From: Chloranthus sessilifolius
Lineage: Eukaryota > Streptophyta > Magnoliopsida > Chloranthales > Chloranthaceae
Assembly: GCA_021018995.1 (NCBI GenBank)
Contig: CM037597.1
Location: forward strand, 34,474,936-34,538,935
Reading direction: 5' to 3'
Length of the DNA: 64,000 nt
Position 1 is the first letter of the stretch; each line of letters opens with the position of its first letter. The notes below the pieces were generated by a model. The model searched no databases and was not told the origin of the DNA. It saw nothing but the letters and a program-made list of their open reading frames with translations. Shown in pieces: positions 3,001 to 57,550 of the stretch. A program made the position numbers and the translations under genes.

Positions 3001-5756
3001 GATTCCTTAGCCACGCTAGCCTTGGACATCCAAATACCCATCAGGCAAAATACCATGACCTTCTTCATCGAAAAGCTTACAGTACCCACTCATGAGGTAG
3101 CATGAACCGTCAAGAGAGAATTACCTGTCCTCCCCACAAGTACAAGACCAAAAGAAGCAATCACCCCAGAAAAGCATGTCAAGATAGAAACCAAAGTCGC
3201 TATGTTCAGATTTATAAAATCACCAACCGACAATAGACAACCATGGTAATTTGACATCTGAAACTTCTTGAAACATCAACACGTCCCTCCATACACCACA
3301 AAGATTGAACGAAAGACTACAAGGAACCGATACGCTCGATTCTGCATACTCAGCGAAATATTATACAAAGAGGCCTTCACTAAAGGAGTACTACTACCAT
3401 GCATCACAACAGCCGAAGGATAATACATCATCCAAGAAGCACACGCTAGTGCCTGCGGCACCCACTTCGGTAGATAGAGACTCGACAATCAAGTTACATG
3501 ATAAGGCTACTTCTGACCGATAATGATCAGAGATTGCCACCTCTATGTCCAATCCTACAAGTAATGCCAATAACACGCTGCACTCGTCAAAGCTCCATCA
3601 GTTACATTGAATACTATGACCTCGCCATGGCTATTTTTGATGTGGGCCTTCGATGTCATTAGACCTTTCACAGACACCTTTGGGAACACTCACAATCATG
3701 CGTTCATACTTACAGCGACCGAATACTACACCAAATGGACAGAAGTTGGATCCTATGTCAGAATCACCGCTTCAACACTTGTAAGGTTTATCGTTTGAAA
3801 TATCATCACCAAGTTTGGAGTACCCAGGATGTCTGTCGCTGACAATGGACCATAGTTCATCATAGAGAAGACGAAGAAATATGCAAGAAGTACGACATTG
3901 ATATGCGCCATTTATCACCGTTCTACCCTCAAGGCAATGGACATGTAGAAGCTACAAACAAAATGTTGATTTGAATCCTAAAATACATAGTAGAAATGAG
4001 CAATGGAGTCGACTGGCCTGAACGATTACCATAAGCACTCTGGGCCTATAAGACCTCTATTCGTACAGCGACTGACCAAACTCCCTACCTCCTTACCTAA
4101 GCGATGGAGGCAGTCCTACCATATAAGATATAAGTATCATCCTTACAAATTTAACTCGATGATGAGTGCTCCTCAGACGAGAGGAGAATTGCCTTACTCA
4201 TGCAGCTAAAGTAACTCGATGAAATACGTCTAAGGTAGCTGATAATGCTCAGGTATATAAGAGGAGAGTGGCTAGGGCTTACGATAAGAAAGTCCTTGAA
4301 CAAACCTTTAATATTGGCAAATTAGTCTTGAAGAAAATCATGCCTTCCAAGCACGCTCATCCGAAAGGAAAACTGAAACTGAATTGGGAAGGCTCTTATG
4401 TCAAAACAGCCGCATACCCTGGAAATGCCTACAAACTGGCGAACCGAGACGGGGAAGAACTCCCTAGCCCTTAGAACGCCATGTACCTTAGAAAATATTA
4501 CCCTTAGCCCTATGATCGTCACATCCCGTGGTAAAATACTTATACTTATCACCCCCGTCACGACCAATTCATTGGTCGTACGCCTTCAATTCTAAAAATA
4601 TCCTTAAGACCTCTGATTTATCGCCAACCTTTTCCCACTTGGGCAATCTGATTAAAGGACTAGTAACCTATCTAATCTCCTTCGAAAGCATAACTAACAC
4701 CTGATCCTTATTTCCCTTCCTCTACCATTGGACGAGATGTTAGAGTAAAAAAAATGAAGATGTTAGGTTCAATCAAAACTCATTATTCTTTACGCTAGCG
4801 GGATACTTTCAAGAATACATACATAAAAAATTTTGAGTGAGAGCATTACGACGAATGAATATGTCAATGAGCTCATGAAAGCATAAGCAGACCATGAGGA
4901 CGTCCCCGGTAACGTTACTAGAAGTGTATAAGAAAGCTGCGAGGGCACCCCTGATGTCCCCATACTACTAGATGTCATCGTAACATGGTGGGAGGAGGAT
5001 AAACTCCTACTAACCATAGAATGTGAGATTTTGATGGTACTGAAATATGACAAAGAGCTTGATCATGGCACCCCATATCCCCTTGAGAAAAAGATTGTTA
5101 CTCACCCCTTTTGGAAAGCCTTAAATACAAACTGTTCCCCACATCACTAAACCTTACCCCTCGCTTCTATTTTTATTTCGGACGATAAATCAGAAGCCCT
5201 ATAGGATGTTCCTAGAAATGAAACTAAAAACTGATGAATGACGATTGATGCAATCACCTACTATACCTATCATACTTCTCCCTAATAACCACTGGATAGG
5301 ATGCCCATCACCCTAAGATAGACCCCCGTATACAACTGACCTAATCAAAGAGACCTCCCCTGTTCGATGACAGTACCGATCAACTTATCTTCAAGACTAA
5401 CTCACCAAATACCCATGATTGCTTATAGACCTAAAGTGCTCATCGCGAAACCCAAAAATGCTCCATTACATCTTGACGCTGGGGCATTATTTTTTAGATT
5501 AGAGGAAGAATCATATCAAAAGCGCCAGCTTGTCAACGGAGAAGATGAGGAACGATGAAGTTACCATCCGAAAAGTGCTACCGAAGATACCATACTGCCA
5601 ATCCTACCATGCTCCTACACTGGGGCATTTTTATTTTTATTATTTTGTTATTATTTCTATCTTAGCTATTTGCTTTCTCTGTTGCATTATGGTCATTCCA
5701 AAGAAAGAAAGAAAAAAAAAAGATTAAAAAAAGATAAAAAAGAAAGAGCACATATT
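1..5756 (+). mobile_element. Ty3/gypsy Tat-lineage retrotransposon, pol remains
   Basis: This is the fossil pol region of a Tat-lineage LTR element; its 5' end lies outside the window. Parts in order: a spacer before RT (about 1-1200), RT (about 1200-1950, with the motif YVDDILVKS), a first RNase H (about 2100-2560), a second RNase H (about 2640-3030, with ILYFDGA, NNVAEYEA and SDSQLV), integrase (about 3600-4210), and the integrase C-terminal part (about 4268-4500, with VLKKIMP, LNWEGSY and DGEELPSP). Two RNase H domains in tandem are known from the Tat lineage, which is why I chose it. The element is broken in many places, on the order of ten or more. The sequence probably continues beyond the nested element at 17254. 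Confidence 0.85.
4571..5756 (+). other. Post-pol non-coding stretch of the Tat element
   Basis: No recognisable coding signal was found here. The sequence runs from the end of pol to the nested Tekay-like LTR and ends in an A-rich tract (about 5697-5745). Tat elements commonly have a long region between pol and the 3' LTR, so this is probably that region. No LTR boundary is visible. Confidence 0.5.
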
Positions 5757-6482
5757 TGTGACAGCCCGACTTTTCCCCGTCTTGTAAATGGGAAAGGTCG
5801 CGCCGTCGGATCACCTAACATGATCCTTTCTTACAAGTGCATCATGTACAAAGTTTTATAATTGCGGAAGCAAATTAAAATAACTCTGATATGAAGAAAT
5901 ATGGCACAACTGATATCCATTCCTTTATCTAAAATAGTAAATTGAATAAGAAACATAAACAGAAAACCTATACATGAAGTAGTAAACTATCTCAAATCAC
6001 ACTGCTGTTTATGCATGTTTAAGACCACTACTTTCTCTCTCTCGCTAACCTATTTCGAAAAGAATTCTTCCGCAGAATCTTCCTCCTCGTCTCCCTCATC
6101 CTCCTCCTGATGGTAGGTAGGATCAACCTCGTGCTCTGAGCAATATCTGCAACTTAGACATAAAGTCGTAGGATGAGCTATCATCAAAGCTCAGCAGGGA
6201 CAATTAAAATGCTAATTTATATAAGAGATTATCAATTCATGTCTAGATGCAAAATAAAATAAAACACATGTCATCTGATATTATGTCTATTCTAGCATCA
6301 ATATATCCTAGCAGTATATCACAGACAAACACTAGTTCATGCAATTATTATGTCATGCTGACAATGCTGACATATTCATGCTGACATATTCATCTGACCA
6401 AATACAAGTACTGACAAGGAAATCATGAGAAATAATATCAAGGAATCATGTTGAAACAAGATATGTACAAGGACAAGAAAAT

Positions 6483-6752
6483 CAAGCTCCCAAGTAGCGG
6501 GATCACTTGTCAAGCTCCCGAGTAAGCGAGATCACTTGGATCGAGAAAATCAAGCTCCTGAGTTAGCGGGATCACTTGGACCGAGAAAATCAAGCTCCCG
6601 AGTTAGCAGGATCACTTGGACCGGGATATTAAGCCCCTGAGCAAGGTTAATAGGGCCACTTGACTCATGAAGTCAAGCCCTTGAGCTATGTTAGTAAGGT
6701 CACTTGACACAAGACTGGTCAAGCCCCTGGGCTAAGGTAGCAGGGTCACTTG
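6483..6752. repeat. Tandem array of seven covarying hairpins
   Basis: Seven units of about 27-34 bp start near 6483, 6511, 6551, 6591, 6631, 6674 and 6720. Most begin CAAG and end CTTG, which are complementary. Inside is a second stem: CTCCCG with CGGGAT in early units, CCCCTG with CAGGGT in the last, and CCCTTG with TAAGGT in the sixth. Paired positions change together between units (T-A to C-G, C-G to T-A). A few units contain a mismatch. The other LTR carries the homologous array at about 14075-14313. Confidence 0.8.
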
Positions 6753-7809
6753 GCTCAACATGAAACAAATGAGTATCAAGAATCAAGACGTGACCATGTA
6801 CGAGAGCAAGCAGGCGAGAGCATTATGCACATATATATGCAAATCACATGGTTGTATAACCTAGCATATAACGGAGCATAACTAAATTAAGCTATGCATA
6901 TAACTAAGCATAACTGAAGCATATAACTGAGCCTAACTAAATTTCACATGCCTGTATGTACGAAAACTAGCATACTCAAACGTAGAATGGTCATATCCAC
7001 TTTATTCAGCAAAACTAAGCTAACCATTTATTAAAGTTGACTTAGCAACTAAACTTATCAAAGTTGATCTCTAACGCTGCACTATCAAAACAAGCATACT
7101 CAAAACTAGCACGACATGGTCATACTACGCATGCAAGCATACCTGATCTATCAAGTTATCAAATCTGAACTTTCACAGCTAAACTCTCAGAACTTTCCAC
7201 ACGAGCATATTCAAAACTGACCTAGCATGGTCCTCCATATTTAGCAAAACTGTGCTAACAAGTTATCAAACTGAACTTTCAAAACTAAACTATCAACTCT
7301 CAAAGTTGTCAAAACTGACATAGCATATCATACAACTTCATCCCTCGTCAACTAGCATATTGATTTCAAAATAAGATCTTATATTGGAACACACACCTCT
7401 AAACTGATATCTATCACTTGATGAATTGAACTAGCATATTCATTCTTAACTGAAACTGAATTGAACTCCAAATATTTCTTTATCATCAAAAAACTGCTAT
7501 GCGTATAGGTCTACATATGCTTATATCAAAAGTTTGCTTAGCTTAGACAAAAATCAGAACTACCACATAAATCAGTAAGGTAATTTCCCTACTTGCACAG
7601 ACGCTTACGTAAATCTTCTAGTAAGGGTATTCATGCATCAAAGAACACCGCTATCATATCAATTTCTCAAAACGTCTCATGTGCACCAAGTTGCACCTAT
7701 AGTGTATATAAATGGAGTTTAGTATACCCAATGGAATATACGTCACTTGAGACCCAACACACATATTTTATACTATTTAAAGGTCATTGAAGCAAAGACG
7801 GTAACCAGA

Positions 7810-8118
7810 CATAGGCTTGCCTCGGCAGGCCATAGGGGTTGCCGCGGTAAGCCTTTCAGCTGGGCACCTTGTTGTAACTTGTCACTAATTTTTGACCTTA
7901 TAAATGTTAGATTTAGGAATTTGTAACTTCTAGGGCTCGTTGTTCCCTTTCTAACGCATCAAGAATCATGCTAATCAGAGTTCGGGGTCAAAAGTTATAA
8001 AAAAAATACCGAATAGTGGTTTGAGCATAAGGTTGCAGTGGCAAGCCTGAGCACCTTGCCGCGGCAACCACGTAAGGTTGTCGCGGCAAGCCTGTCAGAC
8101 TTGGCTTGCCGGGGTGTT
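7810..8118. repeat. Cluster of GCCGCGGC-centred inverted repeats
   Basis: Short imperfect palindromes built on CTTGCCGCGGCAAC recur about six times in this part of the LTR. The partner LTR holds a matching cluster at about 15388-15685. Confidence 0.6.
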
Positions 8119-9130
8119 TTCTACTCCACTTTGGCTTCTTTTAACTCAGGCAATTGGCTAGTTATTTTGTATAAATATGGATAATATATTTCATATATAT
8201 ATTGCACAGAAAATTGAATTTTCTTATTCATTTTTGTGCAAAATTTTTGGTGTAGTTTATTTACCACTACGGGTTCCAAAACCCATTTCAATATGTGATT
8301 CATGATGCCGATTCGGTCTTAGGGAATCGACAACACAGATTTATTATTTATCTAAATGAACTTCTTAACTAACCTAGTCTAGGAAAGTTGTGTGTTTACG
8401 GTATACCTTTTGGTGATCTTGCGGTCTCGACAGTGCGGTGTCGGACATCTATTGACGTTGCACTTGTCGAGTTTGTGACCTACGAAACTGACCTTCACTG
8501 GACTACATAGAATTTCGTTGAACTCAACTCAACGGACTCATAGTGTTGAAGTGAAGGTGTGAAGACAAAAGTGCATCAAGTCAGGGTTTAAACAAAACAC
8601 TTAGCAGAGATGAAGAAATGATAGCAGTACGTAGTGGTTGGTGTGCATCCATTCTTTCGACTAATTCATAGACAACAAAAGAAAAGAGTTGGTACGATTT
8701 TTTTTTATATGATGTCTCTTCACTTTGTGTGCATGGAGTCGAAGAGTGACTCATGCACCCATGGAGGTTTCTTAGTAACATAATCAGCTTATAAGCTGAT
8801 CTGAGTTGCCTTCCCCTACGCAGCCCATATTAATCAAGAGTGTATAAGCAGATAAGTTAAGTAAGGCTTACTTCATGTTTGCATTGGTTTTGTTTTTAGT
8901 GAATCTGCCTACCAATTAAACTAGGTCTGACTTTGGGCTTGAGACATTAGCTACCCAAGTGGCTTCAGTGTAACTACTTTGAAGTGCTCAGTTCACTTGT
9001 GTGTTGACTACCTCCAGGATAAGTGTATGACAATGACCAGTTTGACTATCCAATCTTGGTACTCATGAATGTTGAGAGGTCCTTTGTGTATACTTTAACT
9101 CAAAGAACTTAATTTAATATGTGAATATCA

Positions 9131-9245
9131 TTGCCTCAATTGCTGAGGCAACCTCTGGGCTTGCCTCAGGTCCTGAAGCAACATACATTGCTTGCCTCAA
9201 GTGGCCGAGGCAACTGATTTCACTTGCCTCAATTGCCGGCCTTGG
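9131..9245. repeat. Cluster of TTGCCTCA/TGAGGCAA hairpins
   Basis: Three to four units of about 21-23 bp have arms TTGCCTCA and TGAGGCAA around a short loop; individual arms vary. The partner LTR has about four at 16770-16935. Confidence 0.65.
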
Positions 9246-12200
9246 TTAGCATTTCTTTATCTACACTAATGTGTCTTGAGTCAAAGGGTCGACACCCCTC
9301 AGTGTCTAGCAGTCCTATGCATTATTTAAAATTGTGTTACACAAATTTTCGTCCTTAGGAAGGCTCCGAATATTTTAATTTCTACCTAATCTCTGATCAA
9401 CCGTTGTTTTCCTTAATACTTAATACTGGGCCACTAAGGCTCCACTATTTAATAATCAACATCAAAATGCCAAATCAGTTCTTTGTGTCACGTTTTTGGC
9501 ACAATCCTGACCCTACTCAAGTCAGTACCCGATGTTGTCCGGATAAAAATGTGGCAGCTGTTACACTCTCCCCTACTTAAGGAATTTTCATCCTCGAAAA
9601 TAAAAGAAGACGAGAAAGTGAGATTAGATTCGGTTATATGTTGAGGGCATATCCATTATAAGACAGAGTAAACATGACTAGGTAATAATGCATAATAAAA
9701 TAAATATATAATAGATTTAGAACAATATAAAGTAAACTGAATCATGTGCAGTATCATGTGCCAATATATAATGCATCAAAATCTAATATCCATCTATTTC
9801 TCTACTTCAATAAATGATGTACCTTTGGGAAATAAATGGGGATACTGAGCGCGAATATCAGCGTCGCATTCCCTAGTGGCTGATAATCCAATACGTGAGT
9901 TGGATCACTAACGTACTTCCTCAGCATAGACACATGGAATACATCATGTACGCTGGATAAATGTGGAGGTAATGCAACTCGTTATGCTATCTCACCAACT
10001 TTGCCCAAAACTGGGAATGGTCCAACATAACAAGGATTTAACTTGCCTCGTTTCCCAAATCGCATCATGCCCTTTTGTTTGAGATATTTTGATAACGACA
10101 TGATTGCTGATTTGACATAATACACTCTGGTATCCCGTGTAGTCTGACTATCTCTCTCAGATAGGCGTTGGCCAATTTCGACGCTTCGAGCCACTCCACC
10201 AAAACGTCTTTTTTAAGTCCTGATACATCTTCGTGCTACCAGGATGAATGACATAAGTTGACTTATGAGCTTCGTCAAGATTTTCATGTCGCAAGGCACT
10301 ATCATCTGGTACTCATACTCTGCCTCGAAATGATAAGGACCCATCGTCCTTAATCAAAAAATCTGGTTGTAGCCCACTTTGTACTCCCTGTCTGATGGAA
10401 ATAAGCTCTGCATCCTGCATCTGGAGCTCTTTGATCCTATCGAAGAGTGAAGCTCGGATCATTACTGTAGCAAGTAAACCTCGAGTTGATGTTGCTCGTA
10501 GAGTGGCACTCGATGATACAATTTCATTGAGTAATTTACATCTTTGTAGTCGTGTCACTAGATGAGATAACTGAACAGATGATTTACGACTGAGCGCATC
10601 AGCTACTACATTGGCTTTGTCGGGATGGTACTGAATAGAACAGTCATAGTCCTTCAAGAACTCCATCCATCTTCTCTATCTCATATTAAGCTCTTTTTAT
10701 GTAAAGAGATATTTGAGACTTGTATGATCAGTGAAAATATCGAAGGTTTCACCATAAAGGTAGTGCCTCCAGATTTTCAATGCGAATATAACCGCTGCTA
10801 ACTCTAGATCATGAGTAGGGTAGTTCTTCTCGTGATCTTTCAACTGTCGAGAACCATAGGCAACCACACATTCCCTCTAATTCAATACACATCCTAGCCC
10901 ACTATACAAGGCATCACTGAATACAACAAAGCCTCTGCTGCCTGATGGTATTGCGAGGACTGGGGATGAAGTGAGTCATTGTTTCAACTCCTTGACACTC
11001 TGCTCACATGCCTCATTCCACTCAAACTTAACATTCTTTCGAGTGAGCTTCGTGAGTTGTCCAGGAAGCTTTGAAAACCCTTCAACAAGACATCGATAAT
11101 ACCATGTGAGACCTAGAAAGCTAACTTGACCAAATTGTGGTTGCTTCCATTGCACTACAGCGTCTATCTTTGCAGGATCTATGGTAATACCGGCTTCGGA
11201 AATGACATGACTAAGAAAACTAACTTGATTCAACCAGAAGTCATAGTTACTGAATTTCATATACAGCTGAGAATCTCTTAATGTCTGTAAAGCAAGCCGC
11301 AGATGACTTTCATGCTTTGCTTTCATCTTTGAGTAGAGGAGAATATCATCGATGAATACTACAATACACTGATCTAAGTAAGACTTGAAGACTCGATTCA
11401 TCAAGTCCATAAATGATGCAGGAGCATTGGTCAACCCGAAGGGCATCACGAGAAACTCGTAATGACTATAATGTGTCCGAAAAGCTATCTTTGAAATATC
11501 TTCAGCTTTCACTTTCATCTGATGATACCCCAATCGTAAGTCAATCTTTGAACACCATCATGCTCCTTGTAACTGCTCGAAGAGATCGTCAATTTTGAGG
11601 AGCGGATAATGATTTTTAATCGTCAGTTTATTTAATTGACGATAGTCAATGCGAAGACGCATTGACCATCTTTCTTCTTCATGAACAATACCGATGCGCC
11701 CCATGGAGACACACTCGGTCTGATAAACCCTTTGTCAAGAAGCTCTTGCAACTGAGTTCTTTCAACTCCACTGGTGCCATTCGATAAGACGCCTTTGATA
11801 CCTCCTCGGTGCTCGGGGCTAAACCACTAGCGAATTCCACTTCCTTGCTAGGCAAAAATCCTGGCAACTCAGTAGGGAAGATATTAGGGAATTCACAGGC
11901 TATTAGCAATCTACTTCTACAATCAATGCTCGCATGATGATTGGATAGCCAATCAATGCCAAGGATTACGTTGAATCCTTGCATATCGAGTAACTCGAGT
12001 AAGATCAATCGGCTACTGCTTCATACTATGTCAGTAGTGACAGACTATCTAGTCGGGACTGACACATCACAATAAAGTCAAGAGGTTCTGGGGTGACTCC
12101 CAACTTTTCAATAAATTAGGTGTAACAAAGGAATGTGTCGATCTAGGATCTATCAAAACATGTGCCTCATATAACAAGTAGGCATCCTCTGGATATAATT

Positions 12201-13344: not shown

Positions 13345-13356
13345 GCTCTGATACCA
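13345..13356 (-). promoter_or_regulatory. Primer binding site, initiator Met tRNA
   Basis: The minus strand reads TGGTATCAGAGC, complementary to the 3' end of plant initiator Met tRNA, two bases inside the 5' LTR. It fixes the orientation of the element. Confidence 0.9.
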
Positions 13357-13358
13357 CC

Positions 13359-16300
13359 TGTGACAGCCCGACTTTTCTGCTTCTCATAAATAGGAAAGGT
13401 CGCGCCATCGAATCACCTAACATGATCCTTTCTTACAAGTGCATCGTGTACAAAGTTTTACAATTGTGGAAGCAAATTGAAATAACTCTAATGCGAAAAA
13501 ATATGGCACAACTGATCTCCATTCCTTTATCTAAAATAGTAAACTAAATAGGAAATATAAACAGAAAACCTATACATTAAGTATTAAACTATCTCAAATC
13601 ACACTATTGCTTATACATGTTTAAGACCACTACTCTCTCTCTCTCTAACCTATTTCGAAAAGAATTCTTCCATAGAATCTTCCTCCTCGTCTCGCTCATC
13701 CTCCTCATGATGGTAGGTAGGATCAGCCTCATGCTCAGGGTCCTGAGCAATATCTGCAGCTAAGACATAAAGTCATAGGATGAGTAATCATCAAAGCTCA
13801 GCAGAGACAATTAAAATGCTAATTTATATGAGAGATTATCAATTCATGTCCAGATGCAAAATAATATGAAACACGTCATCTTATATTATGTCTATTCTAG
13901 CATCAATATATCCTGCCAGTATATCACAGACAAGCACTGATTCATGCAATTATTATATCATGCTGACAATGCTGACATATTCATGCTGACCAAATACGAG
14001 TACTAACAAAGAAATCATGCGAAATAATATCAGGGAATCATGCTAAAACAAGATATGTATAAGGATAAGAAAATTAAGCTCCCGAATAGTGGGATCACTT
14101 GTCAAGCTCCTAAGTTAGCGAGATCACTTGGACAGAGAAAATCAAGCTCCCGAATTAGCGGGATCACTTGGACCGGGATATTAAGCCCCTGAGCAAGGTT
14201 AACAAGGTCACTTGCCTCATGAAGTCAAGCCCTTGAGCTATGTTAGCAAGGTCACTTGACACGAGACTGGTCAAGCCCCTGGGCTAAGGTAGCAGGGTCA
14301 CTTGGCTCAACATGAAACAAACGAGTATCAAGAATCAAGACGTGACCATGTACGAGAGCAAGCAAGCGAGAACATTATGCACATATATATGTAAATCACA
14401 TGCTTGTATAACTGAGCATATAAAGGAGCATAACTAAACTAAGCTATGCATATAACTAAGCCTAACTAAACTTCACATGCTTGTATATACGAAAACTAGC
14501 ATACTCAAACGTAGAATGGTCATAGCCACTTTATTCAGCAAAACTAAGCTAACCATTTATTAAAGTTGACTTAGCAACTAAACTTATCATAGTTGATCTC
14601 TAACGCTGCACTATTAAAACCACTTATCAAAACAAGCATACTCAAAACTAGCATAACATGGTCATACTACGCATGCAAGCATACCCGATCTACCAAGTTA
14701 TCAAATCTAAACTTTCATAGCTAAACTCTCATAACTATCCACCCAAGCATATTCAAAACTGGCCTAGCATGGCCCTACATATTCAGCAAAACTGAGCTAA
14801 CAAGTTATCAAACTGAACTTTCAAAACTAATCTATCAACTCCCAAAGTTGTCAAAACTAACATAGCATATCATACAACTTCATCCTTCTTCAACTAGCAT
14901 ATTGATTTCAAAATCAGATCTTGCATTGGAACACACACCTCTAAACTAATATCTGTCACTTGATGAACAGAACTAGCATATTCATTCTTAACTAACATTG
15001 AACTGAACTCCAAATATTTCTTTATCGTCATTCAAAACTGCTATGCGTAAGGTCTACATATGCTTATATCAAAAGTTTGCTTAGCTTAGACAAAATTCAG
15101 AACTACCACATAAATTAGTAAGGTAATTTCCCTACCTGCACAGACGCTTACTTAAATCTTTTGGTAAGGATACTCATGCATCAAAGAACACCGCTATCAT
15201 ATTAGTTTCTCAAAACATCTCATGTGCACCAAGTTGTACCTATAGTATATATAAATGGAGTTTAGTATACCCAATGGAATATAGGCACCTGAGACCCAAC
15301 ACACATGTTTTATAGTGTTTACAGGTTATAGAGTCACCACACATATGCCAAATACAGACGAAGAGTCATTGAAGCAAAGATGGTAACCAGACATAGGCTT
15401 GCCTTGACAGGCCATAGGGGTTGTCGCGGCAAACCTTTCTGCTGGGCACCTTACTTCAACTTGTCACTAATTTTTGACCTTGTAAATGTTAGATTTACGA
15501 TTTTGTAACTTCATAAAAGTTATAGGGCTCATTGTTTCCTTTCCAACAAATCAAGAATTGTGCTAATCGGAGTTAAGGATAAAACGTTATGACAAGAATA
15601 CCGAACAATGGTTTGGGCATAAGGTTGTCGCGGCAAGCCTGAGCACCTTGCCGGGGCAAGCCTGTCAGGCTTGGCTTGCCGGAGTGTTTTCTGCTCCACT
15701 TTGGCTTCTTTTAACTCAGGCAATTGACTAGTTATTTTGTATAAATATGGATAATAAATTTCATATATATATTACACAGAAAATTGGATTTTCTTATTCA
15801 TTTTTGTGCGAAATTTTCGGTGTAGTTTATTTACCACTACGGGTTCAAAATCCTATTTCAATTTTTGATTCGTGTTGCCGATTCAGTCTCAGTGAATCGA
15901 CAACATAGATTTATCATTTATGTAAATGAACTTCTTAACTAACCTAGTCTTGGAAAGCTGTGTGTTTATGGCATACCATTTGGTGATCTTGCGGTCTCGA
16001 CGGTGTGGTGTCGGACGTCTATTGACGTTGCACTTGTCGAGTTTGTGACCTACGAAACTGACCTTCACTGGACTACGCAGAACTTCGTTGAACTCAACTC
16101 AACGGACTCATACTGTTGAAGTGAAGGTGTGAAGATAAAAGTGCATCAAGTCACGGTTTACACAAAACACTTAGCAGAGATGGAGAAATGGGTTTGATAT
16201 GATAGCAGTACGTAGTGGTTGGTGTGCATCCGTTCTTTCAACTAATTCATAGCCAACAAAAGAAAAGAGCTGGTACGGTTTTTTTTTAGATGATGTCTCT

Positions 16301-17253
16301 TCACTTTGCGTGCATGGAGTCGAAGAGTGACTGATGCACCCATGGAGGTTTCTTAGTAACATAATCAGCTTATAAGCTGATCTGAGTTACCTTCCCCTAC
16401 GCAGCCCATATTAATAAAGAGTGTATAAGAAGATAAGTTAAGTAAGACTTACTTCATGTATTACTCTCATATATTTTGTGAAGTGTATATGTGAGTAAAA
16501 GCTAGAATTCCATGCGATGTCTGCATGGGTTTTGTTTTTAGTGAATCTGCCTACCAATTAAACTAGGTCTGACTTTGGGCCTGAGAGATTAGCTACTCAA
16601 GTTGGCTTTAGTGTAACTACTTTGAAGTGCTCAATTCACTTGTGTGTTGACTACCTCCAAGATAAGCGTATGACGAGGACCAGTTTGACTATCCAAACTT
16701 GGTATCTTGAATTTAGAGAGGTCCTTTGTGTATACGTTAATTCAAGGAACTTAATTAAATATGTGAATATCATTTCCTCAATTGCTGAGGCAACATACCT
16801 TACTTGCCTTAGGGGCTGAGGCAACCTCTAGGCTTCCCTCAGGTGCTGAGGCAACATACATTGCTGACCTCAAGTGGCCGAGGCAACTGATTTCACTTGC
16901 CTCAGTTTTCGTGGCAAGGCCATCAGGCCTTGGTTGGCATTTCTTTATCTGCACTAATGGGTCTTGGGTCAAAGGGTCGACACCCCTCAGTGTCTAGTAG
17001 TCCTATGCATTATTTAAAATTGTGTTACACAAATTTTCATCCTTAGGAGGGCTCCGAATATTTTAATTTCTACCTAATCTCTGATCAACCGTTGTTTCCC
17101 TTAATACTTAATACTGGGCCACTAAGGCTCCACTATTTAACAGTCATCATCAAAATGCCAAATCAGTTCTTTGTGTCATGTTTTTGGCACAAGCCTGACC
17201 CTACTCAAGTCAGTAACCGATGTTGTCAAGATAAAAATGTGGCAGCTATTACA
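13359..17253 (-). repeat. 5' LTR of the Tekay/Del-like element
   Basis: On the minus strand it begins TGTAATAGCTGCC and ends GGGCTGTCACA, that is TG...CA. It matches 5757-9565 along its whole length with scattered substitutions and small indels. It contains a tandem hairpin array (about 14075-14313) and two further clusters of short inverted repeats (about 15388-15685 and 16770-16935). Confidence 0.9.
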
Positions 17254-17620
17254 ATATCTATCTTTTCCTACCAGACCCCGGTCTGAGACACTTACCCACC
17301 TTGAAAACTAGCAAGGGGGAGAACAAAAACTACTGACAACATTACTCTCACATGTGCAGATACGAAGCAACCTTCAACCATCACCGGGCCAGCTCAAAAA
17401 GCATCCAAGTCCCAATGACGGTCGATGGCGCTAAAGCAACTAAAAGAAAAAGTAGATGCAAGAGGTAACTAAAAGTATAGGAGCCAATCAGGTACATCTA
17501 AACCAAAAATCTCTCTATATATATGTCAAAATCTTTTCATTTCTTTTTACACTTGTCATCGAGGGCATCCCCCTATATATACAACACACACATTCCATGA
17601 ATACAATAAAAACACACACA
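17254..17620. other. Downstream flank of the antisense PMD gene
   Basis: No coding signal was recognised. The sequence begins at the target-site edge of the Tekay-like insertion and runs to the last PMD coding block. It probably belongs to the interrupted Tat element and to the 3' untranslated part of the antisense gene. Confidence 0.4.
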
Positions 17621-44126: not shown

Positions 44127-46124
44127 TACGTCAAAATAGGAGAAAAACGACTCTAACTAATCTGAAAAGAACTACTGCCTGACAGTGGTAAATGGATGGA
44201 CGGTGGTTTATTATGTTGTCTAGCCAGAAAATTCGTGCCAACCCCATTATAAATAGGGCAAACACAAAACCATCCCTTTTATAAATTGGGCCAACACAAA
44301 ACCCATCATCTCTCTCACAGGAAGCCCCGAGAACCCATCGTCTCCACTCCAAACCCATCGTCTCCCTACAAACCCTAGAAACCAATCTCTCAAAACTCCA
44401 TTAAAACTCTCGATTCCTTCACAAAACAATGCCACCCGCTTCTCTTCAGTCTGTCTCTCTCCTCAAATATCTTCCTCCAATCCTATAAAAGACACCAATC
44501 TCGAGATCGATATCTTTCAGACGGTTGGAGGAAGAGATTTGAGGACATTCATGGCCTGTGAATCAATCTCGTTGAAGTATCCTTGAGTAACGGATTCCGT
44601 ATCGATCCGCGTACCTTCAGGCATTTGAAACTGACAGAACTCAAAATGGTTGGTTTGATCTAAGTTTCTGAAGAAATCGTAGTTGAAATCACCAAATCCT
44701 CGACAAGTAACCAGTGCATTTTTTTTGTTTTTTTTATTTCTTACAGTCTTATTTATCTTTTGTTTTTTTTTTCTGATCCAAAACCCTAAATCGGAGTCAG
44801 ATTTAGGGCTAGGGTTTTTTATTTTTATTTTTTTATTTCTTAGATTTCCTGAGTTTATTTATTTGTTTTTCCATATCCAGACCTTATTATTTAAATTTTT
44901 TTTCTTTTTTTTTGTTCTTCTGACTATAGGTTTCAGGGCCTTTCCTCTCTTTATATGTTGGTATTTTTCTTATAATTAAGTTCTAGCCTTTTCAAGTTTT
45001 CAGCATTGCGATTTCTCTCTATTTTTTTTTCCTCAATATTTTTGTTATTTATTTTGATCCTATTTAGCTCCCGACTACCTTCTATGAAGGCCCCTTCATT
45101 CATCGAGTTCTTTATGGTTTTTATCTGTAAAGATAGTTTATATTTTATTCTGTTGTTATTTAGTTTTCAATATAATTTATTTTTTAGTTGTTTATTTAAC
45201 AGTTATAGAATATTAATGGCCGCCATTTAATCAAATATTGTTTATTTTGAGCTGTTTATTTCACTGTTTAACTTTGTAATGAAACTCTTTTGATCCAAAG
45301 TCGTCTTATATCGGTCTATTTCATGCGTAGCAGCTGCAAAAACTACTCTACCTTAGCTATAGTTATTATTGTTAATTTTTCTCCTATAGCTAGATCTTTG
45401 TGGGTTCTACTTCTTATCTTCAATTTGTTGATGGCTTCTCTGACATTCATTTTACTAATTCCACAGCCTTTTTTTCTAATTCGAAAATTAATTAATTTCA
45501 TAGAAACAAACTATAGATCTGCAATATGTTCTATGAAAGATGATTTAATTTTTAAACATAAAAAGAAAAAAAAAATTCTATTTTAATGCTTAAAAACTTC
45601 TGTAGAACAAAGTTTTAAAATGTTTCTCGCGTAGTTTTCATTACCTTTTAGTGCTACCACTACTTCTCCACAATTTATCATAAATTCAGTTGGCAATTTA
45701 TTTTTCACCTGCTCTAGATCTATGGACTTGTTCTTTTTGTTTTGCTCCCTTCTTCATCTAGCTCACCTTCTTAGGCAAATCTCATCTAACATGATACATG
45801 TCACCTGTACACTTATGTATCCCACTAATGCAACTCATATAAAACTGGATAAATACTTCAAACATTTTAATTATGTTATATATATATATATATAGTTATC
45901 TATTTTTATCCCACTTTTTCTTATTCTTTTATTTTTCTTAATTCACACTGTATCAATCCATGCACATCTGGTATCACGCCCGCGAAATGTATCAGTATTT
46001 GAGGTGACCAATGTGTGTGACACCAAAATTCCCTATTCTTATATTTTAACAACTGGATCACCAAATTTCTTTTCATTTTCCCATCATGTGATAATTGATT
46101 CACAAGAACTTCCATAGATTTTAG
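44127..46124. other. T-rich stretch, possibly 5' leader and intron of the GH3 gene
   Basis: Positions 44283-44690 are C-rich with CCCATCGTCTCC repeats, like a plant 5' leader. They are followed by about 900 bp of T-rich sequence with the low complexity of a plant intron. A GTAACC after ACAA near 44706 could be a donor. The open frames in the T-rich part (about 44683-45586) encode only Phe/Leu runs. The link to the GH3 exons is inference. A (TA)n run lies near 45877-45895. Confidence 0.3.
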
Positions 46125-51050: not shown

Positions 51051-52636
51051 TGTAGACACCCAAATTTGGCCCAAGGCCCGATCGAGAGAGGCGCATTTTT
51101 GAGCTTTTGATGGCATGTATGGAACCCTTAGGAATCACCCTAGATCCCTTAGGAACCTACCTCGAACCTTTAGAAGCCAACCCCGACCCTTAGAACCCTT
51201 ATCGAACCCTACCCTAACCTTCTCAGGCGATAAGGAGGAGGGGTGCACCAGAACTGGTTACGACCCTCTACAGTGACCAACACTTATACCATTGAAGAGT
51301 AGAGGTCGTCAGCTTTCCAACGGTTCAAGAATTGCCCCAATCAGAGGTATATATCAGAAGATATGACAGTCCAAACCCGGAGGGTAGGAGGGTAATTTCA
51401 AGTAAGGCCCCCTAGGGATTTGGCGCAACTATTAGTCGCGCCAGGCTATTACCTGGCGCAACTATTAGTTGCGCCAGGCCAATTCTCCTAGTTTTTAAGC
51501 CTGGCGCAACTAATAGTTGCGCCAAGATTAAAAGGTGGCCCCCACCCCGCGAGCTAACCTCCAGACACTATTCTTCACTATTTTACTGTGCATTTACCTG
51601 GCACAACAATTAGTTGTGCCAAGCATATGAATAGTAACTCTGGGAATTTGCCTCGAAAATCATGATTGGGGTTTGACTTGTTGACTACCTTGACCTTTGG
51701 GGTGTGTTTTGCTAGTTCTCTTGCACCCATTCCTTACCTATTTGCAACCCTCCAAGTGGCCTAAAGCCTCACCCCATCATCCACCATTAGAACCACCTTC
51801 ACACCTTTTCAAGCTCTCAAAATCTTAGGAAACCTTAGATTTGAGATTACCTAATTGCTAACCCCAATTAGCATCTAAGTAGCCTCCTAATCCACACATT
51901 TCCTATAAATAGAGCCCCCCTCCCCTTGGTTTAAGGGTTGAGAATTTCTACCTAAGAGAGAAAGAGCTTAAAGTGAGAAGATTTTTCTCCCTTTGGTGCA
52001 CATCCCCATACAAATTCTAGAATTCACAAAACTCCTTTAGACCTTAGCAATTCATAGAAAACCCTTAGGTTAGGTGTGTGTGATCCCCTAGCCTCCCTTC
52101 CCTACCTCTTAACTCCAAGCCTTAAGAGTTAGAACCCCACTTACCACCATACAAAGCCTTCAAGAGCTCATCAAAGCAAGCCACGCAATGCTCTCCTACG
52201 GTGCTACAAGGGCCCGAGGGCTCCGGCTCTCCCCTTTCTTCTCCTATCTCTTTTCGGCATTCCCTACTCTTTCATTTGTGCCGTTACGCCGCCTAATTTT
52301 CTGTAGGAACGGAGGGGCACAAATAGGATTGGAGGCCCATTTGGGCAAGAGGGAACCGTTTCCATGTCTTTTACATCATTTTATTTTTAGCCATTAGTAG
52401 AGACCACGTTAAGCGGGTTGATCGGGTGCCTAATACCTTCCCGATTGATAACCGAAGCCCCTACCCAAGAGCCTTTGGTGTGGACCGGATTCAGAGTCAT
52501 ATTTTTAGCACTTAGGTGCTCATAAAAATGAACTAGGTATCCCGGGACACTGAAAGCTCCGGGTGGCGACTGTATATATTTTAATCGTTAGAGAGCACAT
52601 CGTCGCGACGGGATCGTCTCGATTCCCACGGTTGCA
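51051..52636 (+). repeat. Solo LTR of the Tat-like element family at 54829
   Basis: It starts TGTAGACACCCAAATTTGG and ends CACGGTTGCA, as does the LTR at 54829-56439. It matches that LTR over its length with scattered changes and indels. There is no primer binding site after it and no purine tract before it. ACTTT precedes it, and ACTTT also follows two bases after its end, a possible target duplication. A solo LTR left by recombination is the simplest reading. Confidence 0.75.
51419..51625. repeat. Four GGCGCAACT palindromes
   Basis: Units read TGGCGCAACTA, one A or T, then TAGTTGCGCCA; the copies lie at about 51420, 51455, 51503 and 51598. The last has GGCACAAC with GTTGTGCC, matching changes in both arms. 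Confidence 0.85.
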
Positions 52637-53167: not shown

Positions 53168-54828
53168 TTTGTAATGACCCTGAAATTCCGAACAAGAACC
53201 TGACTGTTTCAATATGCATGCTCGGCACAGAAATCGAGACAGATTTTTTAAAATTTAATAATCAATATTAGTTGAGGTAAAGATACCCCCATAGTTAGAT
53301 GAATTCACACGTGAATTCTCGCTTCAGTCTGAGTCGTGTAGGATTTCGACATGTTGCGTTACGTCGTAGAGATCGTGAGGGTGCTTAACACCGGAGTTTA
53401 AATTAGGGTCTAAACTGAAATATCATAGATATTTTAGTTTAGGTAGCTTATAATGGGAGGGAGAGACCTGGAGAGATGTTTCTTCTTCTTCTTCCTCTTG
53501 TTCTTGAGCTAGAATCCAGTGGTTAGGTTGGGTCCTGAGAGTGTTCTTCAAGGAAGTAGGGTTAGGGATACCAAGATCATAAGTTAATTTGAGTTGGAGT
53601 AGGTGGAGTCCAAAGGAACGAACTCAAGCGTAGCCCGGGTGTGTGTGAGACCTCTGCATGCTGAATCGGGGTCGATACATTACATATCGGAGTCATACAG
53701 ACAATACAGCCCGAATTTCGGATCCAAAACCCTCTTTCGGATCATTTGCCGAGACCCCGAAAGGGCCCATGTAAAGGTGAGTTTATGCGTTTAGATTTGG
53801 GCAAATGAAAGCCCTTAAATATGTGTTTGTGTGTGTAGTAATGGTTATGAGAAACCATTAATGAAGATAGGTCAAGTGGTGGAGAAATAAGTGACATCCA
53901 TTAATGACACTGAAGCTGTCATTATTGATCGATCAATGCTAGATTGATCGATCAATGAAGGGTGTTGATCGATCAATAAAGGATATTGATCGATCAATTC
54001 GTATAAGACAAAGAAGGGAACAGAACACTGAAATTTCTGGAAGTTCAATGCTCAAAGGGTGTTGATCGATCAATTAGTGAATTGATCGATCAATCATGAG
54101 TATTGATCGATCACAGAGAGTGTGATCAATCAATGGCTGGTATTGATCGATCAATGAAGGCATTGATCGATCACTTGTGTGTATTAATCAATCAATGAAG
54201 GCATTGATCGATCGATCTGTATAAATTTCAAATGAGAATAGGAGGGAATTTTGAAAATTTAAGCTATTGATCGATCAATGAGGTCATTGATCGATCAACA
54301 AGACACATTGATCGATCAACCAAGCTGGTGATTGATCAATTTGGCTATGACAGAGTGTGAAGAAGAGGAAAGTATTGATCGATCAATTAAAGTATTGATC
54401 GATCAATGAAGGGTATTGATCGATCAATAAAGGCTATTGATCGATCAATAAAGGCTATTGATCGATCAACTACCTCTGTTACTGGTGAGTTGAGTTGAGG
54501 GTATTGATCGATCAATGGGGCTATTGATCGATCAACAAGGAGGATTGATCGATGAATAATGGTGTTGATCGATCAATCACCCCTATTTTTTTCCTGTTTT
54601 GTTTGTGTGAATTGAATGCTACTGGACGCCGTACCAGTTGACTTTCTGAACTACCTGACATAAAGTTTACTATATTTATGGTCTAGGATCGGACCATGAC
54701 GCTTTAAAAAGCTTTAGATTTGCTTAGAAAGAGGTCTGATTTTAGGTAGTGGAAAACCAACTTAAACTGCTTTTGACTATGATTTCATGATTCTTGCATC
54801 CCTGTGCCCTGATTTCTGTTTTAACAAG
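53168..54828 (+). mobile_element. LTR-like sequence with GATCGATC palindrome array
   Basis: It begins TGTAATGACCCTGAAATTCC, a start typical of plant gypsy LTRs, and runs uninterrupted to the LTR at 54829. No end, primer site or coding part is visible. It may be an LTR cut by the insertion at 54829. The open frame at 53603-53794 is not recognised. The palindrome array at 53935-54582 is its main feature. Confidence 0.4.
53935..54582. repeat. Array of about 25 ATTGATCGATCAAT palindromes
   Basis: The core TTGATCGATCAA recurs about 25 times in 650 bp at roughly 20-45 bp spacing. Most copies are perfect; a few are TTGATCAATCAA-like or have one arm changed. Spacers are unrelated except for a recurring GAAGG or AAAGG. 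Confidence 0.9.
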
Positions 54829-56439
54829 TGTAGACACCCAAATTTGGCCCAAGGCCCGATCGAAACTCCTTTTAAGAGAGGTGCAATTCTGAACTTTTGA
54901 TGGCATGAATGGAACCCTTAGGAATCACCCCAAACTCTTAGGAATCACCCTATATCCCTTAGGAACCTATCCCAAACCTTTAGAAACCAATCCCGACCCT
55001 TAGAACCCATTTCGAACCCTAAACCTAACCTTCCCAGGCAATGGATTAAGAGTGGCGCACCAGGACTAGCTGAGGTCTTTTACTGATATCAAATCATATA
55101 CCATTAAAAATAAGACTTCTCCAGCTTTCCAATGAGCCAAGAATCACCCCAATCGGAGTTGTATATCAAAAGTTATGGCCGTTTGAAGATCGGGCTTTTT
55201 TTAGAGGGATTTTTACCTGGCGCAACTAATAGTTGCGCCAAGCCATTTTCCCCCTGAATTTGCCTGGCGCAACTAATAGTTGTGCCAGGCTTTTGTCCCC
55301 CAGAAATGGGATGGCGCAACTAATAGTTGCGCCAGGTATAAGTGGGTCCCCCCACCCCTCGCGAGGCCAACTTCTAGGCTACTGTTCGCTACTGTTTTAC
55401 TGTGCATTTGCCTAGCGCAACTAATAGTTGCGCCAGGCATATGAACAGTGACTGTGGGTTTTTGCCTCAAAAATCGAGATTGGGGTTTGACTTATTGACC
55501 ATCTTGATCTTTGGAGTGTGTTTTGCTAGTTCTGTTGCACCCTTTTAGTGCCTATTTGCAACCCTCCAAGTGGCTTAAGGCCTCACCACCCCATCATCCA
55601 CCATTAGAACCACCTTCACACCTTTCCAAGCTCTCAAAATCCTAGGAAACCTTAGATTTGAGATTACCTAATTGCTAACTCCACTTAGCATCTAAGTGAT
55701 CTCCTAATCCACCCTTTTCCTATAAATAGAGCCCCCCTCCCTTTGGTTTAAGGGTTGAGAAAATTGCTTAAGAGAGAAAGAGCTCAAAGTGAGAAGTTCT
55801 TCCTCCCTTTTGTATATTATTTTTACCTAAATTCCAGAACCTCCCAACCTTATTCGAAGCTTGTTCTTGCATCCAAAACCCTTAGCCTAGGTGTGTGTGA
55901 TCCCCTAGCCTCCATCCCCTACCTCTTAGCTTTAAGTCTTAAGAGTTAGAACCCCATTCTCCACCATACAAAGCCTTCAAGAGCTCATCAAAGTAAGCCA
56001 CGAAGGCTCCTCTACGGTGCTACAAGGGCCCGAGGGCTCCGGCTCTCCCCTTTCTTCTCCTATCTCTTTCTAGCTCCCTCCATCCTCTCATTTGTGCCGT
56101 TACGCCGCCGAATTTTCGGTAGGAACGGAGGGGCACAAATAGGATTGGAGGCCCATTTGGGCAAGAGGATGTTATTTTCTTTGCTTTTACATCATTTTAT
56201 TTTTGGCCATTAGTAGAGACCGCGTTAAGATGGTTAATCAGGTGTTCCCGATTGATAACCGAAGCCCCTACCCAAGTGCCTTTTGGTGTGGACCAGATTC
56301 AGAGTCATATTTTTAGCACTTCAGTGCTCATAAAAATGAACTAGGTATCCCGGGACACCGAAAGCTCTGGGTGGCGACTCTATATTTTTATCAGAGAGCA
56401 CATCGTCGCGACGGGACCGTCACGGATCCCACGGTTGCA
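54829..56439 (+). repeat. 5' LTR of the Tat-like element
   Basis: 1611 bp, TG...CA, followed at once by the primer binding site. Four GGCGCAACT palindromes lie at about 55216-55440. A solo copy is at 51051-52636. Confidence 0.85.
55216..55440. repeat. Four GGCGCAACT palindromes
   Basis: Copies at about 55217, 55264, 55310 and 55412, with the same 11+1+11 design as in the solo LTR. Three further variants lie in the leader at 57428-57550. Confidence 0.85.
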
Positions 56440-56443
56440 TAGA

Positions 56444-56461
56444 TGGCGACTCTGCTGGGGA
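56444..56461 (+). promoter_or_regulatory. Primer binding site of the Tat-like element
   Basis: TGGCGACTCTGCTGGGGA, four bases after the LTR. This type is common in Tat-lineage elements; I am not certain which tRNA it pairs with. Confidence 0.65.
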
Positions 56462-56564: not shown

Positions 56565-56900
56565 CCCCTCCGATTACGTCATTTTACTCACCCCTACGAT
56601 TCCGCTTTAAATTTCTGCAATCTTTGCCTAGACACTTGACTGGCACCTTTTTTTTTACTCACCCCTACAATTCCGCTTTAAATTTCAGAAATTTTTGCCT
56701 AGTCACTTGACTGGCACCTTTATTTACTCACCCCTACAATTTCGCTTTAAATTTCAGTAATTTTTGCCTAGTCATTTGACTGACAACTTTCTACTCACCC
56801 CTACGTTTCCGCTTTAAATTTCAGCAACTTTTTGCCTAGTCACTTGACTGGCACTTTTTAAATTTCAGCACTTTATATTTCCCGCCTAGTCGCTTGACTG
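56565..56900. repeat. Leader minisatellite, five units of about 65-75 bp
   Basis: Units contain ACTCACCCCTAC, TTCCGCTTTAAATTTC, TTTTTGCCTAG and CACTTGACTGGCACC. The units differ by small indels. It lies in the untranslated leader of the Tat-like element. Confidence 0.8.
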
Positions 56901-57427: not shown

Positions 57428-57550
57428 GCTGGCGCATGTATTAGTTGCGCCAGCACAAAAATCTGGCATTTATAACTGGCGCAACTAATAGTTGCGCCAA
57501 CTTTAAATCCCCAGATTTTACCTTGGTGCATGCATTAGTTGTGCCAGGTG
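57428..57550. repeat. Three GGCGCAACT-family palindromes in the leader
   Basis: Copies at about 57428, 57476 and 57524. The middle is canonical; the others read TGGCGCATGTATTAGTTGCG and TGGTGCATGCATTAGTTGTG. These are outside the LTR. Confidence 0.8.

Follow-up and report, generated by a model that had tools for sequence, protein, structure and literature searches.

The array of short inverted repeats at 6483-6752, in the 64,000-nucleotide window of Chloranthus sessilifolius DNA analysed here, lies inside a long terminal repeat (LTR) of a Ty3/gypsy retrotransposon and consists of tandem dyad-symmetric units, as is expected of a palindromic cis-regulatory array. We put at roughly one half the probability that it is indeed a set of tandem dyad-symmetric cis-regulatory DNA repeats. 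While the element lived, the array would most likely have worked as a set of putative enhancer or silencer boxes, at which a host DNA-binding protein may have bound and read two inverted half-sites of the form CAAG-n(1-3)-YCCYG. We infer protein binding, regulation and a selection that would have held the symmetry before insertion. Since then the inserted copy has decayed in step with the remaining LTR sequence, C-to-T change being fastest at CG and CHG. With the most economical reading placed first, regulatory repeats are followed by a neutral origin, then by a folded RNA element and last by a target of host silencing.

The window is rich in LTR elements and is plant-like by these elements. 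Self-comparison of the window detected a pair of LTRs on the minus strand, whose boundaries were set by reading the sequence: the 3' LTR at 5757-9565 (3809 bp) and the 5' LTR at 13359-17253 (3895 bp), both with TG..CA ends. Just outside the LTRs stand the 5-mers ATATT (5752-5756) and ATATC (17254-17258), equal at four of five bases, which look like a worn target-site duplication. By reading we also placed, on the same strand, a primer-binding site (PBS), TGGTATCAGAGC, at 13345-13356, 2 nt past the 5' LTR, which we take to match initiator tRNA-Met, and a purine-rich tract at 9566-9577 that precedes the 3' LTR. The minus strand further carries a protease fragment (11679-12020; RVP_2, E 5.2e-7), a reverse transcriptase fragment (10976-11557; RVT_1, E 1.9e-20) and an integrase zinc-binding remnant (10157-10312; Integrase_H2C2, E 5.9e-9), its domains running in the order zf-CCHC (below its cut-off), RVP_2, RVT_1, Integrase_H2C2 and pieces of SH3_Tf2-1. 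Two LTRs, TG..CA ends, a PBS and a purine tract are marks of the Ty3/gypsy type, and the minus-strand reverse transcriptase, protease and integrase-end pieces, together with the PBS and the purine tract, therefore assign the element to that type and to the minus strand. A chromovirus of the Tekay/Del-like kind would carry a chromodomain behind its integrase; no Chromo match was found in four fragments at E up to 1, which is weak evidence because the region has decayed. The element looks dead, because the longest listed stop-to-stop frame inside it is 193 aa and the integrase core had no match among the element fragments searched. Its LTRs diverge by a K2P distance of 0.079 over 3709 aligned sites, and 192 of the 277 differences between them are transitions.

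As the earlier note had described, seven tandem units occupy 6483-6752 within an LTR, and the other LTR holds a homologous array, in which six units are found at 14075-14304. All of the units are on the minus strand and fall into two classes. Class A consists of units 1-4 of the 3' LTR (6483-6618, with units at 6483-6509, 6511-6538, 6551-6578 and 6591-6618) and of three units of the 5' LTR (14075-14170, with units at 14075-14101, 14103-14130 and 14143-14170); with departures, these seven units have the sense form CAAGT-GA-TCCCG-(5-6 nt)-CGGGA-GCTTG. Class B consists of units 5-7 of the 3' LTR (6630-6752, with units at 6630-6662, 6674-6706 and 6720-6752) and of their counterparts in the 5' LTR (14182-14304, with units at 14182-14214, 14226-14258 and 14272-14304), and the sense form of these six units, again with departures, is CAAGT-GA-CCCTG-(11 nt)-CAGGG-GCTTG. 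The hairpin had first been read on the antisense strand. Since the reverse transcriptase, the protease and the PBS show that the minus strand is the coding one, the hairpin in RNA sense is the reverse complement of that reading, with 5+5 pairs, ten in all, a 2-nt bulge and half-sites that differ in length (12 and 10 nt). The outer CAAG/CTTG stem, which had been ascribed to every unit, is not universal: the plus strand has TAAG in unit 5 of both LTRs and in unit 1 of the 5' LTR. The half-site CAAGTG is unvarying in 13/13 units, which is conservation of sequence and is uninformative on pairing; we take CAAGTG/CACTTG to be an E-box-type hexamer.

Tandem Repeats Finder reported pieces of the array with periods of 28, 40 and 44 in the 3' LTR and of 44 and 46 in the 5' LTR, and a degenerate pattern of the unit matched nine times in the window vs none in 100 shuffles. 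The array starts ~2.8 kb into the LTR and stops 726 bp short of its 3' end. TATA-like motifs common to both LTRs flank it on both sides (LTR-sense ~1799/1947 and 3348/3433), so that the array may belong either to U3 or to the transcribed R/U5.

Covariation between the arms was examined in 13 related units, seven from the 3' LTR and six from the 5' LTR, with none dropped. A whole-unit MAFFT alignment shifted the register of the inner 3' arm, owing to a 5-nt difference in the loop; it was left out of the counting in favour of an alignment of the arms with the loop removed. In sense orientation the 130 stem cells comprise 103 Watson-Crick, 19 G-U and 8 C-A combinations, and 13 of the 19 G-U cells come from the fifth outer pair, which is a fixed U-G in 13/13 units. 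The tool's own count, made on 12 distinct rows, has 93.3% of 120 cells paired. Two-sided change is seen in three of the ten stem pairs and agrees with what had been noticed in the letters: the T-A/C-G and C-G/T-A changes are present between classes A and B, and a further C-G/T-A change is present in unit 6 of both LTRs. Covariation was 0.285 vs 0.188 in shuffles, of which 0/500 were as high, and slid registers gave 0.087-0.212, below the value of the true register. The number of two-sided pairs was 3 vs 2.8 in shuffles, with 306/500 shuffles reaching 3.

Tandem units are not independent, because one palindrome that is then duplicated gives every unit the same fold. In a tree-aware null, the substitutions per column were kept and re-dealt on a tree. 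Here the covariation score was 164 vs means of 41-49 (P 0.00025-0.0035), a P value which, like the other covariation P values given below, is uncorrected for the choice of the array by its paired changes. One tree was made from the same data, and the other had a topology of our own by position with assumed branch lengths; two trees combined with two branch weightings gave P 0.00325, 0.00025, 0.0005 and 0.00025, and a separate run of the null gave P 0.0035 and 0.0005. The same null returned P 0.017-0.021 for the Watson-Crick fraction, P ~0.11 for all standard pairs and P 0.29-0.39 for the number of two-sided pairs (3 vs means of 2.0-2.8 over this null and the shuffles). When the T-A/C-G pair was left out, P rose to 0.039-0.084, and when either of the other covarying pairs was left out, it was 0.0005-0.012. 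Paired change is beyond chance in the 13-unit set, yet it is carried by about three events. Set against the shuffled-tree null that the earlier note had named, the covariation score beats the null, whereas the count of covarying pairs stays at the chance level.

Palindromes hold a trap in this respect: their symmetric methylation sites can decay in mirror image and mimic RNA covariation. A neutral origin, in which slippage or unequal crossing-over multiplied a palindrome that had arisen by chance, as happens with LTR satellites, and the mirrored changes came from parallel decay of methylated cytosines, is a possibility that we consider rather unlikely. Between the LTRs, C-to-T differences are found at 26.7% of CG and 23.0% of CHG vs 8.9% of CHH positions; CG/CHG decay is thus 2.6-3 times as fast as CHH decay in these LTRs, and we read this context-dependent change as decay of methylated cytosine. 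Mirrored decay is easier in palindromes because both arms carry the same cytosine context, and CG and CHG sites account for two of the three paired changes (one pair CG, one CHG in most units), the third covarying pair being CHH. The neutral origin is also consistent with the chance-level number of covarying pairs, with the array of the 5' LTR being one 40-bp period shorter than that of the 3' LTR, and with the frequency of equally stable sequences: shuffled LTRs often contain 33-nt windows that match the best class A unit (-10.3), with means of 4.1 and 4.6 per LTR. On the other hand, the tree-aware null keeps the substitution counts of each column and so allows for fast columns, and the P value is still 0.00025-0.0035. 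Separated by context, the CG/CHG pairs alone give P 0.007-0.024 and the CHH pair alone gives P 0.0035-0.014. Both LTRs also have an excess of local hairpins that a neutral origin does not lead one to expect, with 20 on the sense strand of one LTR vs a mean of 6.8 (maximum of 20 shuffles, 12) and 18 in the other vs a mean of 7.5 (shuffle maximum, 13), though most of the excess hairpins sit outside the array.

Changes since insertion can be followed in six pairs of homologous units across the LTRs, with unit 2 of the 3' LTR taken as partnerless. Eight stem pairs differ, through nine arm differences of which none is compensated; read in sense, four are Watson-Crick vs G-U, three are Watson-Crick vs C-A and one is G-U vs A-C. 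The array and the rest of the LTR have diverged alike (15/230 vs 262/3479 sites). These observations fit a symmetry that the lineage maintained or restored while it was live and that was lost later, in a comparison of unequal time spans and low counts. That the fold is conserved while the sequence drifts, as had been suggested, is partly supported by the co-change of the arms above the tree null, but not by the arm differences that arose after insertion (0/9 compensated).

The reading as regulatory DNA sites is favoured because a similar half-site is found in both arms, with CAAGTG in all 13 units, because the changes in symmetry beat the tree-aware null, and because the two-sided changes all lie between classes or in the shared unit 6, with none compensated since insertion. 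It is also favoured because the departures have no strand preference in their wobbles. In the inner stem the sense strand has 6 G-U vs 5 C-A, and inner and outer departures without the fixed U-G amount to 6 G-U vs 8 C-A, similar counts that therefore indicate no wobble preference for one strand. Further support comes from an independent dyad array in the same LTR, TTGCCTCA-n5/6-TGAGGCAA, with three units at 9131-9213 in the 3' LTR and five at 16773-16917 in the 5' LTR, all on the minus strand; this TTGCCTCA/TGAGGCAA array has no pair with two-sided change. The window also contains another LTR family, with matching stretches at 51123-52636 and 54933-56439, in which TGTAGACACCC begins at 51051 and 54829. 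Four GGCGCAAC..GTTGCGCC dyads occur in each of its LTRs and precede the TATA-like CTATAAATAG (51903 and 55720) by 283-501 bp, and the position of these dyads before CTATAAATAG, as in the layout of Sireviruses, favours regulatory sites too. The regulatory reading is weakened because the half-sites are unequal and because TATA-like motifs stand on both sides of the array.

That sense transcripts of the LTR fold as a row of bulged hairpins used in packaging, dimerisation or translation is, in our estimate, improbable. The covariation of the arms would be expected of such an RNA element, and RNA is favoured over DNA sites because 11/13 units have a better fold in sense than in antisense and the U-G pair is fixed in 13/13; the better folding in sense is, in our reading, partly due to this fixed pair. 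By eye, the minimum-energy fold of the 5' LTR array shows units 6 and 7 each as a hairpin of its own, and if the upstream TATA motif is real, the array could be located in a 5' leader, ~0.7-0.95 kb before the PBS. However, in the corresponding fold of the 3' LTR array, again by eye, units 7 and 6 and units 4 and 3 pair with one another instead. The whole array has an unremarkable fold energy (z -0.93 and -1.44, with 33/200 and 22/200 shuffles folding as well); the array is not stable above shuffled sequence, and its energy was rejected as proof of structure. Each unit had been said to fold, which applies at shuffle p<0.05 to 3/13 units in sense and 1/13 in antisense, the rest being no better than chance (single-unit sense-strand z from -2.83 to +0.48). 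An RNA element is further opposed by the lack of G-U bias and by the finding that no Rfam family reached the gathering score in the window; a tRNA search with bacterial settings likewise found none in the window. Little evidence favours RNA over dyad symmetry of DNA. It is a slightly less probable proposition still that the Ty3 family keeps a row of hairpins in its LTR transcripts, with arms that co-evolve in live elements and lose their match only once a copy is dead. If this were true, the symmetry before and after insertion would offer a general test for selected LTR structures.

Least probable is that the array serves as a target of host silencing, whose structured LTR transcripts would be cut into small RNAs, as is proposed for the palindromes of maize Sireviruses. 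PMC10760457 gives a rule of -40 kcal/mol per 110 nt, and windows over the class B half pass it on the plus strand (-43.1 in the 3' LTR, -42.3 in the 5' LTR) and on the minus strand of the 5' LTR (-41.0), and the margin is wider for blocks within 7755-8170 and at 9103-9256, which go as low as -55.8 and -51.6, but the array of the 3' LTR gets only to -37.1 in sense, and a role in silencing alone would not select for the fold.

Several other palindromes and repeats were met in the window. The strong hairpins of the Ty3 LTR, at 7755-8170 and in blocks between 15349 and 15732, fall below -40 kcal/mol per 110 nt, and several of them arise from TTGCCGCGGCAA-like palindromes. In the other LTR family, two further GGCGCAAC..GTTGCGCC dyads stand at 57431-57498, past a PBS-like TGGCGACTCTGCTGGGG at 56444. 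One G-C to A-T paired change is found among the dyads of this family (51600-51620), with CG in both arms, and it is subject to the same ambiguity of CG decay as the main array; double changes at positions 1-2 were discounted as lying outside the dyad, and the CG pair at position 8 was kept. The GGCGCAACTAATAGTTGCGCC-like dyads at 51422-51620, 55219-55434 and 57431-57498 are far stabler than shuffles (z down to -10.7). Between the LTR copies of this family lies a dense ATTGATCGATCAAT palindrome array (53924-54577, period ~20, z down to -12.8), and four tandem repeats of 69-71 bp occupy 56582-56859, shortly past the PBS-like site of this second element. An isolated 90-nt window at 44461-44550 on the minus strand, outside the LTRs studied, has a z of -10.9.

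Relatives of the array were sought in sequence collections that, by design, are without plant genomes. The unit patterns had 0 matches in viral_contigs and 0 in genome_contigs, and the GGCGCAAC palindrome had 0 in viral_contigs. The reverse transcriptase fragment had four pattern matches in viral_contigs, where plant genomes are outside the collection's design, and none was a relative; the 5' LTR had no match among plasmids or phages. A pattern joining the LTR end to the PBS had 0 matches in viral_contigs, and its six bacterial-titled matches in genome_contigs (five Pseudomonas, one Pseudidiomarina) were taken as chance. Because of the design of these collections, the absence of further copies of the family says little. 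Of six short sequences, only the 11-mer AAGCTCCCGAG had text matches in the literature, in five papers unrelated by title, and no paper describing the array was recognised among the literature matches listed.

The known palindrome arrays of plant LTRs that we met in the literature, to the extent that the sources were available, are those of the Ty1/copia Sireviruses. Two arrays in one Ty3 LTR and a third in another family suggest a convergent use of tandem dyads. According to the available part of PMC2829016, the palindromic repeated motifs of Sirevirus LTRs sit upstream of the TATA box and have a proposed regulatory role; they resemble the units described here in being short dyad-symmetric repeats arrayed in plant LTRs, and the place of the GGCGCAAC/GTTGCGCC dyads before a TATA-like box agrees with their layout. 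Their host is a copia element, whereas the array here is in a Ty3-type element with the integrase after the reverse transcriptase (RVP_2, RVT_1, Integrase_H2C2). Most Sirevirus motifs, as far as that part of the paper goes, have a CGG-CCG core, which is absent from the CCCG..CGGG of class A and the CCCTG..CAGGG of class B, and the class B stems, unlike most of those motifs, are without CG. Two classes of unit with paired change between them are a feature of the present array that the same part of PMC2829016 does not mention for Sireviruses. The tandem repeats in U3 of Tnt1, a Ty1/copia element mentioned in PMC3601003, are likewise plant LTR repeats tied to transcription. The hairpin-rich maize LTRs enriched in small RNAs share palindromes of miRNA-like stability, but PMC10760457 reports an LTR peak for Copia and generally no obvious one for Ty3, while the Ty3 LTR described here has several such blocks. 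Finally, Retand and other gypsy elements show that family-specific tandem arrays occur in plant Ty3 elements; their arrays, in the available part of PMC11963269, lie between pol and the 3' LTR, whereas the array described here is dyad-symmetric and lies within the LTR itself.
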